From Acidobacteriota bacterium (GTDB taxonomy: Bacteria > Acidobacteriota > Terriglobia > Terriglobales > Acidobacteriaceae), in the NCBI GenBank assembly GCA_021793405.1, contig JAJYSV010000009.1, forward strand, positions 1 to 64,000: a stretch of 64,000 nucleotides of DNA, in the 5' to 3' direction. The position numbers were made by a program, and so were the translations under genes. Of this stretch, positions 32,554-35,691 are shown in pieces; positions within the stretch are counted from its first letter, which is position 1; each line of letters begins with the position of its first letter. Under the pieces are notes generated by a model. It was not told the origin of the DNA, ran no database searches, and saw only the letters and a list, made by a program, of their open reading frames with translations.

Positions 32554-35500
32554 TTATCTTTGTATTGAAGATGTTTCCAGCACGACACGAAATAATTCTT
32601 CTTCATATGTCGCGCGTGCCACTTCAAAGTCAAGAAGTTTGACGATTCCGCCCGAACGCCTGTCGAGTCCGGCGATAGTTGCGTGAAATGCACGATGCGC
32701 CGTTGTCGCTCGCGCGGCTAGCTGCCCGAGTTCATTCATGTAAAGCCCGATTTCGCAATCTTTATCGGAATCGCAATCCTGCATGTACTGCAGGTAAGTC
32801 GGACGTTGTGGCAGGATTCGTGCGGTTGCATCCAGACAGAGCAGTTGAAGCGCGACAATGCCGAGGACAGTCGTCGGTTTGGTCCAGGGAACGGGCTGAT
32901 AAATTCTAAGCCATCTTTCCAGCTCGTCGATGTTCATAGGCATTGCGATTGCGTGGCCTTGCGCGTATTGCACTCCCAGGGCGGCGAGCGCATCCCGGGA
33001 TACGTTGCTTTCGACACCCTCGGCAACCAGTTCGAGCCCCAGAGATCGTGCCAGATTCACAAGATTCATAAGGAACCGGAGTTCCTTCGGCTGATGATCT
33101 AATCCAGTCAGAAAACTGCGATCCAGCTTGATGATGTCAACCGGAAACTCCTTCATTCGTAACAAAGAGGAGTAAGCGCTTCCCACATCGTCCAAGGCGA
33201 CCCTTGCGCCGCAGGTTTTCAGCTCGCGGAGGGCCTCCTGGGCACCGGCCATGGATAACGTATCGACGCGTTCCAGCAGTTCCAGAACAATGCGATTCGC
33301 GCTCAGGCCGCTGTTTTGAATCTGTTGGCGCAGATCCAGCATGGCTTTCGGATCGGTCAGAGTAGCGGGTTCAAAGTTGACACCTACACTCAGATGAAAA
33401 CCGGCTTTGTCCAGACGGTGTAGATCCTGGATGCTTTGTGCAAGCACCTCAAACATTAGAGATGCCAGTTCAGCCGGGCCGAATTGCAGTAAAAATTCGG
33501 CAGGGGAAAGAAGACGATCGTCATCGTCCATGAGGCGCGCCAAGGCTTCTACTTTCGTAGCGCTTCCGGTTTGCAAATCGATGATGGGCTGGTAATGGAC
33601 CCGAACATTTCCCTTGCGGAACAGTCTAAGAATTTTTTTCTGGTAAAGGTGCTTCTGTTCGTCCACCTCGGCCTGGAATATCATCCAGCGCGGTGCCGCT
33701 TCATCCGCGACTTCCTTTAACGCGTACAGAGCGCGGTCCGCGTTACGCAGCAGATGCTCGGGGGTGGAATCATCCTGAGGAAACAGGGTCACGCCCAGGC
33801 TGGTACGCAGGTTTGTGGTCCGTCCGTTCGCGAGATGAATCGGCTGTTCCACCGATGCCTGGATGCGAGACAGCATGGCCGCCAGATCGTCCGGATGATC
33901 GAGGCCTTCCAGCACCAGCACGAATTCATCGTCGCCCAGCCGTCCTACCGCGTCCGTCGGCCTGAGCGGCACTTGCAGACGTTCGGCGACAACGCGCAGC
34001 AGAACGTCGCAGGCCGGGTGGCCATGCAGATCGTTGAGTATCCTGAAGTCGTTCAGGTCGAGCAGCGCGACGGCCATCGATCGATTCTGTTGGCGCGATC
34101 GGACGATGGCTTCCTCGATCCATTCCGTCAGTCCGCGACGATTCAAAATGTCCGTGAGCGGATCGTGCCGGGCCAGCCACGACTGGTACTTACGCTCCTC
34201 ATCGAGTACTTGACGAAGATCGAGGCTGTCAAGGTGGTGGCCAGCAAGGCGCGCGATCCGCTCAATCAACGTCAGCAGCTCGGGATGGAATATGTTTGGC
34301 TCGCGAGACACCAGAGTCAGGAGCGCCCAGATCTTCCCGTCGCGGTAGAGGGGAACCACGGCGGTTGCGTGCAGGTTATGTTGGCGACAGAAGTCCTGTA
34401 TCGGGGGATAGTCCGGATCTGTCATGCGGTCGTTCGTAAATTGAAGCTGGGACCGGCGCCATGCCCGCACAGATAAGACGCGCTCTTCGTCGCCGGTGTA
34501 GACATTCGGAAGACAGGCGGAGAATGGGTTGGCATCTATGGTGTTATAGATCGCCTGGATTTCCAGATCACCGCCAGTATTGGGACGGCTAATCCATGTC
34601 AGCGCGAACAATCCGTTCTCTACCAGGAGACGGCACAGCTCGTCGAGCAACTGCCGCTCATTTTGTGCTCCGATGACCGCCTCGGCCGCAGTCATCAACG
34701 CTCGATAGAGAGTGTTGGAGTGAACATTCTGATTCAGGGCACTTTTCAGGTGGGTGATGTCCTGCTGGATGCCGATGAAGTGTGTCCTGGCGCCCTTGTC
34801 GTTCGTTACCGGCGCGATGCTGAGGGAGTTCCAGAACATGGTCCCGTTTTTGCGATAATTTCTCACCTCGGCGGTACAAACTTTACCCGTCTTTAATGCG
34901 TGGCGGATCGCAGCCGTCTGCGGCTGATTCGTATCCGCGCCCTGCAGGAAGCGGCAGTTTTTCCCCATCACTTCGTCAGCGCTATATCCGGTGATGCGCT
35001 CGAAGGCCGGGTTGACGTAGCGAATCGGTAGATCGTCCACAGCCTCGGCAATCAGGATGCCGTTGGCCGAGGCGTCCATCGCGGTCTTGTAGAGCATCAG
35101 CGTCTGCTGGTCTTTCTGCATCGCTTCCAGCATCCGCAGACGTTCCAGCGCGAAGCCGAGCAGGCTGTGTAGCTGGTAGACAAATTGCTGGATTTGCTCC
35201 TCGGCAAAGTAATTCGGGCGTTTACTGTAGAGGATCAGGATGTCGCGATTGCCTGCGCTTCCAGGGACGGGAATCGCGCACGAGGAACGCCAGCCGAACT
35301 GAAGCCCGCGGTCGCGCCAAAATGCTGCGGGCAAGGGACTTTCACGATCCATCCAGTCGAGAGAGAATTGGGGAATGCCCGTTCGCCAGGCGAGGGCGAG
35401 TGCACTGTCGGGATTGTCGTTGATCCGGATGGTTCCCCCGGCGAGAAATTCCCGCACGCGTTCGCCAGCCACAAAATGATACGCCACTGTCTCCTGTTCA

Positions 35501-35691
35501 TCCGGCGCACCCAGCCAGACTCCGTCCACCTCCACAGTTCGCAAAAGGAATCGGGCCAGGTGGGGATAGAGTACAGAGATGGATGGAACCGTCAGAAGCA
35601 GACGATCCAACTGCGCTGGTAGTTCGCCCAGTTGGTCCAGGGGAACGTGGGGTACGCTGAAATCTTCAAATGCGTTTATGAAATCCGCCAT
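32554..35691 (-). CDS. LOV-GAF-GGDEF-EAL protein, probable blue-light-responsive c-di-GMP phosphodiesterase
   Basis: 1045 residues from ATG 35691. Domains in order: an N-terminal GAF-like region (about 20-190), a LOV photosensor (about 203-313), a second GAF (325-490), GGDEF (500-665), EAL (685-930) and a 115-residue C-terminal extension. LOV is shown by [16 protein letters not shown] with the flavin-adduct Cys C246, plus [13 protein letters not shown] and FIGIQQDIT. The cyclase motif is degenerate (GDDEF at 586-590), so synthesis may be weak or lost. The EAL catalytic residues look complete: E715, E804, D834-D835, K855, E891. The likely output is c-di-GMP hydrolysis tuned by light. The C-terminal extension has a CEIG and an HxxxH, suggesting a metal site. 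No transmembrane segment is seen. Confidence 0.9.

Follow-up and report, generated by a model that had tools for sequence, protein, structure and literature searches.

The gene at 32554–35691 on the minus strand of the window, the 64,000-nucleotide stretch of an Acidobacteriota contig analyzed here, encodes a predicted protein of 1045 amino acids with the domain layout GAF-LOV-GAF-GGDEF-EAL followed by a C-terminal tail. The longest open reading frame, running from 35853 to 32554 on the minus strand, is larger (1099 amino acids). We consider the start at 35691, with the N-terminus MADFINA, likelier than this extended form, because the first methionine of the open frame in four orthologs (G005–G008) belongs to the aligned MAQ- sequence. 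The same start had been used in a preliminary description of this DNA, and residue numbering refers throughout to the 1045-residue form. When the whole protein was scanned, PAS_9 (90 bits), GAF_2 (68 bits), GGDEF (123 bits), and EAL (176 bits) scored above their Pfam cut-offs and lay on a single chain in the order PAS_9/LOV, GAF, GGDEF, EAL, which places the protein in the LOV-GGDEF-EAL class. Two features had been absent from the preliminary description: a weak GAF-like domain ahead of the LOV domain and a helical tail of ca. 115 residues at the C-terminus.

Full-length orthologs occur in all ten genomes of the genus, with the copy in G007 cut by a contig end. Thirteen of 398 genomes of the family yielded matches at E 1e-75 or better: the ten of the genus, two of another genus (G025 and G135), and G163, where the match covers the GGDEF and EAL domains and part of the tail at 38%. 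A scan of 84,980 species, one genome each, relied on two conserved peptide patterns and would thus miss remote relatives without both; it returned 11 near-full-length loci, all in records labeled Acidobacteria or Acidobacteriaceae, the nearest relatives being metagenome-assembled genomes (MAGs) with these labels. Among the best 80 of 138 confirmed loci, the next matches after these 11 cover GGDEF-EAL at ca. 32% identity. Four weaker matches (L053, L070, L075, and L079) extend beyond GGDEF-EAL at 26–34% identity and possibly have similar architectures. The nearest ortholog of the window protein is that of G009, with 78–79% identity. Comparisons below use 12 full-length rows, i.e., the window protein, its nine genus mates (G001–G009), G025, and G135; 11 of these 12 related proteins come from records labeled as MAGs, and the genomes are mostly incomplete.

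The LOV domain spans residues 199–315 (34747–35097, minus strand) and scores 90.3 bits against PAS_9, with PDB matches from E 2e-35. All elements of the LOV signature named in the preliminary description are present in the sequence: the GKNCRFLQG motif with C246, the flavin-adduct cysteine predicted from motif and alignment (codon at 34954–34956, minus strand), and the NYRK, FWN, and FIGIQ blocks. For a 122-residue stretch covering the domain, a search recovered 155 distinct PDB sequences with E values up to 1e-5 (best 2e-35). The best 60 of these 155 include entries named blue-light photoreceptor, phototropin, and aureochrome, and the top matches are named sensory box or PAS/PAC sensor proteins, entries that we take to be LOV proteins. 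In the three best matches, CRFLQ, RNYRK, FWN, and F-IG-Q are aligned with the window stretch. R247, R263, N278, N288, and Q309 are likewise in place and aligned with the two arginines, two asparagines, and glutamine of solved LOV domains; we presume that these residues line the flavin pocket, each with its individual role. R263, N278, N288, and Q309 are invariant in 11 of 11 alignment rows, and C246 and R247 occur in ten.

The LOV cysteine is kept in 11 of the 12 full-length rows. The exception is the G001 ortholog, in which the motif reads GQSGSLLLG while the remainder of the protein is retained, so members of the family can evidently do without light sensing. The cysteine is also present in G025 and G135, there in the context CRLLED instead of CRFLQG, and G135 has FWS instead of FWN. 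Ratios of nonsynonymous to synonymous substitution (dN/dS) of 0.165, 0.191, and 0.147 in three species pairs indicate purifying selection on the LOV domain. By the same simple counting method, values in these three pairs were at most 0.33 for all domains outside the tail.

The LOV domain is flanked by two GAF-type regions of different clarity. Residues 25–192 (35116–35619, minus strand) are GAF-like: scanned alone they match GAF_2 at E 2.9e-4 and 21.5 bits, below the 28.6 cut-off, and an AlphaFold model renders them fairly confidently as a mixed alpha/beta fold (block pLDDT 72–89). The second GAF domain, residues 343–487 (34231–34665, minus strand), is the best GAF_2 stretch of the protein and reaches 56.8 bits alone against the same cut-off of 28.6. 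The full-length model has a pTM of 0.43, which makes its domain arrangement unreliable, and the helix preceding the GGDEF domain lies largely below pLDDT 55. Any relay of signals between the domains is for these two reasons our deduction rather than a property read from the model.

The GGDEF domain occupies residues 507–660 (33712–34173, minus strand; Pfam 123 bits). Its degenerate cyclase motif, GDDEF at residues 586–590 (33922–33936, minus strand), had been recognized before, and we find three further active-site positions altered as well, with N instead of D at position 547, R instead of K at 550, and C instead of G at 561. The domain thus reads DLNDFR for DLDxFK, ACD for AGD, and GDDEF, and lacks the signature of an active cyclase; the canonical residues are those that we presume from general knowledge, and the same residues are visible in aligned relatives. 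GDDEF is confined to the window copy, the corresponding motif being GGDEF in G009, the nearest ortholog, and in G005, G006, and G007, and DGDEF in G008. The case for cyclase loss in this clade therefore rests on the other three positions, which are altered in all six rows of the window's clade (position 561 is Tyr in G005 and Cys in the other five) and unaltered in all six other full-length rows. Among the latter, G025 and G135 have GSDEF and keep a DLDGFK site, and G001–G004 have canonical GGDEF sites. The RxxD product-inhibition site is RPTD in the window protein and is lost in G009 (GPAD). Since dN/dS across the domain is low in three species pairs (0.198, 0.307, and 0.202; 0.20 in the window pair), the altered GGDEF appears to be maintained by selection, which is consistent with a regulatory role or residual activity.

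The EAL phosphodiesterase domain follows at residues 686–918 (32938–33636, minus strand), with a score of 175.8 bits and residue alignment to EAL domains in the PDB. Its catalytic residues, previously described as all apparently present, are indeed complete: E715, N772, E804, E807, D834, D835, K855, E891, and Q911 align with those of the PdeA and MorA EAL domains in a sequence search and are conserved throughout the 12 full-length rows. We assume the metal-binding and catalytic roles usually given to these residues. The loop after the DD pair reads VGSAYSS in the window protein versus FGTGFSS or FGTGYSS in PdeA and MorA, an alteration shared by the window protein and most of the family. The EAL part of the model superposes on RocR with Z 29.6 and an rmsd of 2.2 over 249 residues, and on PdeA with pGpG with Z 29.5 and an rmsd of 2.3 over 255 residues. 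Purifying selection is again apparent (dN/dS 0.146, 0.273, and 0.097 in three species pairs).

Beyond the EAL domain, residues 930–1045 (32557–32904, minus strand) form a predicted helical bundle with a model pLDDT of 84. The ca. 115-residue tail has no Pfam match at E values up to 5, the sole hit of a PDB profile search was a designed protein (E 0.098), and Foldseek returned nothing below E 1. The spacing of one cysteine and two histidines in CZB-like order suggested a CZB domain, for which we looked for a Pfam CZB match and three histidines with one cysteine. The histidine of the first site is missing in the window tail, and Pfam CZB gave no match to the tails across ten genomes, even at E 10; we therefore claim no identity for this region. 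Along with many unrelated helical bundles, VIA-align matched the tail to the DosC MID domain (Z 8.9) and the DgcZ CZB domain (Z 7.1). Its dN/dS was 0.290 and 0.200 in two species pairs, whereas the window pair was not computable with dS saturated. The tail is 64–65% identical to those of G008, G006, and G002 and 75% identical to the cut-short tail of G007, compared with 44% to that of G009, the closest relative, whose other segments are 73–87% identical. The EAL dS of the window/G009 pair is also raised, at 0.90 versus 0.32–0.55 in the upstream domains. Together, the C-terminal mosaic and the raised EAL dS suggest recombination within the gene.

Immediately downstream, 17 or more bases away, lies a tadA-like deaminase gene (32048–32536, minus strand; Pfam MafB19-deam and dCMP_cyt_deam_1). 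We sought ten window genes in the loci of the 11 relatives, with tadA and an HlyD-type protein assigned by Pfam scan and thiG, tolC, ppk1, ruvC, fecR, and ksgA named from their sequences by recognition. A tadA match lies on the same strand within ca. 100 bases in ten of 11 ortholog loci, the contig ending in the eleventh (L040). Genes resembling emrA and tolC follow in eight of 11 loci; L033 and L040 stop short of this region, and neither gene was found within 7.4 kb in L038, the G001 locus. Upstream, thiG is present in five of 11 loci, was not found within 8 kb in L033, L038, and L040, and lies beyond the 1.4–2.7 kb available on that side in L032, L035, and L036 if it occurs there. By these counts the downstream side of the locus is the more stable one. 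The tadA gene is possibly a co-transcribed neighbor, for which we claim no role in light signaling. Identity to the window copies is 55–78% for the LOV-EAL gene, 55–85% for a fecR-like gene, and 64–97% for the other neighbors; the LOV-EAL gene is the least conserved in eight of the ten loci holding any neighbor.

The preliminary description had noted no other photobiology in the window, and this holds as far as we scanned: 38 of the 43 other open reading frames, searched against Pfam at E 1e-8, include no photoreceptor family. In the genome as a whole (4.6 Mb, 137 contigs, labeled 100% complete), the gene is the sole LOV match at E 1e-6, and a search for phytochrome PHY and BLUF domains found none at E 0.01. 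The genome has two EAL regions, the window gene and one on contig C60. The latter (L125, 13500–19500, minus strand) encodes a PAS-rich GGDEF-EAL protein whose EAL domain is interrupted by an in-frame TAG, beyond which the same frame encodes the rest of the domain, as in a pseudogene or an assembly error. Other c-di-GMP genes amount to two HD-GYP-type (HD_5) regions, 12 GGDEF matches (fragments included), and two PilZ matches. The window gene is the only EAL gene seen without an internal stop, but the two HD-GYP-type regions and the second EAL region could also supply c-di-GMP phosphodiesterases in this genome. A gene of this type is the only EAL match in three of the ten genus genomes (G001, G002, and G006; 72–91% complete by their labels).

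Elsewhere in the window, a glycoside hydrolase family 31 gene (1717–4005, minus strand) appears split into two open reading frames, with TIM-barrel profile positions 2–86 in one and 124–325 in the other, through a frameshift, pseudogenization, or an assembly error. Two adjacent family 38 alpha-mannosidase genes (12313–19147, minus strand) encoding 1108 and 1109 amino acids share the same domain set and are likely a tandem duplication. Predicted proteins of 314 and 432 amino acids (25404–26348 and 39881–41179, both minus strand) have no Pfam match at E 1e-8 and look membrane-embedded by eye.

The relatives differ from the window protein most visibly at their N-termini. The orthologs in G001–G004 carry some 130–145 additional N-terminal residues. 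Against the Pfam Protoglobin cut-off of 25 bits, G003 and G004 reach 51 bits; G002 reaches 32.8 bits when scanned alone, without being listed for the whole protein, and G001 stays below at 13.2 bits. A profile of the four extra domains matches HemAT (E 0.002) and the E. coli DosC globin (E 0.013) in the PDB, whereas phmmer with the single G004 domain found nothing there at E 0.01. At the column of a histidine conserved in HemAT and DosC, which we take to be the heme ligand, G003 and G004 have His, and G002 and G001 have Gln. The extra domains of G003 and G004 are 91% identical and hence amount to nearly one observation. The domain is absent from the window protein, which is thus not a globin-coupled sensor, and from G005–G009, G025, and G135. 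In the more distant G163 (L123, 2045–5770, minus strand), a 1242-residue frame combines a similar GGDEF-EAL region and tail start with an N-terminal hemerythrin domain instead (TIGR02481, 85.5 bits, cut-off 51.75).

A tree of the shared core places the six globin-less genus members (the window protein and G005–G009) on one side of a branch with a support of 99/100, and the four globin-bearing members likewise require one change. The branch uniting G025 and G135 with the window's clade has a support of 81/88, and the outgroup G163 sits on a very long branch. A tblastn search with the four globin-like N-termini, covering ca. 1.4–1.6 kb upstream and the very start of the gene in the window and in seven relatives' loci, yielded no match below E 0.15. 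With no upstream remnant, the globin may either have been lost here or have been gained in the relatives; G025 and G135 are also globin-less. Absence of the globin and the cyclase change coincide in one clade. We rejected a statistical correlation between globin absence and cyclase decay, as the six rows form one clade (99/100) and hence represent one event, and the two other globin-less rows, G025 and G135, keep the DLDGFK site.

Several characterized systems resemble parts of this protein. The closest solved relatives of its LOV domain are short proteins named "Sensory box protein" or "PAS/PAC sensor" (7r5n, 5luv, and 3sw1; E 2e-35 to 3e-33), which we take to be of the PpSB1/PpSB2 type; their chains of 162–172 residues have no output domain, unlike the window protein. 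Entry 8c05, a "sensor domain-containing diguanylate cyclase" that couples LOV to GGDEF and is presumably MsLadC, matches the window LOV at E 2e-29. Of the E. coli proteins, DosC/DgcO is a globin-coupled sensor cyclase whose globin resembles the extra domain of the four relatives, while the window protein has no globin, and DosP/PdeO (heme-PAS, GGDEF, EAL) is a sensor-controlled phosphodiesterase with a comparable layout. The NCBIfam DosP model scores the window protein at 204 bits, far below its cut-off of 857. DosP senses oxygen via heme, according to the available part of PMC8846402, whereas the window protein has LOV residues. MsLadC ends in an active cyclase, as the accessible sections of PMC10396304 describe, in contrast to the degenerate GGDEF and likely EAL output of the window protein; the same sections discuss LOV-GGDEF-EAL proteins in which light plausibly regulates the EAL domain. 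A functional parallel is SL2 of Synechococcus elongatus, which likewise joins LOV, GGDEF, and EAL in one protein and hydrolyses c-di-GMP in blue light (available part of PMC8846402). Compared by description, not sequence, the window protein differs from SL2 in its two GAF domains flanking LOV, its degenerate GGDEF, and its C-terminal helical tail. In a census of 1390 detected bacterial LOV proteins, ca. 18% carry GGDEF or GGDEF plus EAL, and the census already lists Acidobacteria as one of the phyla with LOV or BLUF counts (PMC4844311, in the sections available). Among the titles in the literature searched, we found no characterized acidobacterial LOV or BLUF protein. The LOV-GGDEF-EAL architecture is thus already known, and the window protein is one more probable light-controlled phosphodiesterase.

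Taken together, the intact LOV domain, degenerate GGDEF, and intact EAL, the conservation of their residues, and the agreement with SL2 support the light-controlled c-di-GMP phosphodiesterase proposed at the outset. On the strength of these sequence features, we think that the protein is probably a soluble LOV-GGDEF-EAL phosphodiesterase that degrades c-di-GMP under blue-light control, with both the light response and catalysis deduced from conserved residues. In such a mechanism, the LOV domain would bind flavin and form a covalent flavin-C246 bond in blue light. The signal might then pass through the helix after LOV to the second GAF domain and on through the helix before GGDEF, along a putative path in which both helices are low-confidence predictions, and would alter the activity of the EAL domain, whose complete catalytic residues suggest hydrolysis of c-di-GMP. 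The GGDEF domain, having lost its cyclase signature residues, would most likely have a regulatory role, in coupling or through binding of GTP; for FimX, sensing of GTP by a degenerate GGDEF is described in the available part of PMC8846402. Light most likely raises phosphodiesterase activity, a direction guessed by analogy to SL2, and additional inputs probably enter through the GAF domains and the tail.

The conserved features bear differently on other explanations. The LOV domain could mainly sense redox state or flavin, with the EAL domain responding to oxygen or redox conditions in a mostly dark habitat. Oxygen-type inputs do recur around this core, as a globin-type domain in relatives and as hemerythrin in a more distant, similar GGDEF-EAL protein, and one ortholog retains a LOV-like domain without the cysteine. 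A pure redox role, however, would need no cysteine, yet C246 is kept in all but that one full-length row and the flavin-pocket residues of the window protein are intact, which leads us to regard this explanation as unlikely. If, instead, the GGDEF domain still made c-di-GMP in one state, light would shift a balance between synthesis and hydrolysis. Purifying selection on GGDEF in the window pair, the retained RPTD site, the GGDEF motif of the nearest ortholog, and the canonical sites of the four globin-bearing relatives would fit such a bifunctional enzyme. The GDDEF motif and the three altered positions, the latter shared by the entire clade, count against it, as does the missing inhibition-site arginine in the nearest ortholog, and we consider it quite improbable. 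That the EAL domain binds c-di-GMP without hydrolyzing it, making the protein a light-regulated receptor or scaffold, strikes us as very improbable: GGDEF-EAL receptors such as FimX and LapD exist, and the VGSAYSS loop of the window protein and most of the family departs from those of PdeA and MorA, but the catalytic residues are complete and do not vary across the alignment.

Returning to the favored light-regulated phosphodiesterase, we offer a tentative and rather doubtful account of its origin. The ancestor, or a later intermediate of the family, may have integrated oxygen, via a heme globin, and blue light, via LOV, in a single chain capable of both c-di-GMP synthesis and breakdown, with inputs and outputs then dropped piecemeal. 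The window's clade would have lost the globin while its cyclase decayed, leaving a light-gated phosphodiesterase; G001 would have lost the LOV cysteine, and G002 and G001 the heme histidine of the globin. If this were true, the twelve related species would constitute a ready series for sensor addition and removal on one signaling enzyme. In titles and the beginnings of abstracts of open-licence literature, we found no description of a globin-coupled sensor or protoglobin combined with LOV in one protein. The relatives, though few, related, and mostly from incomplete genomes, provide a natural series in which the sensors change around a single phosphodiesterase core, and this series is more interesting than the single protein. 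Because a single chain carries both globin and LOV and the cyclase state differs by clade, one could test whether the light and oxygen signals merge ahead of the c-di-GMP output, and the family also permits a test of whether a degenerate GGDEF still transmits a signal.
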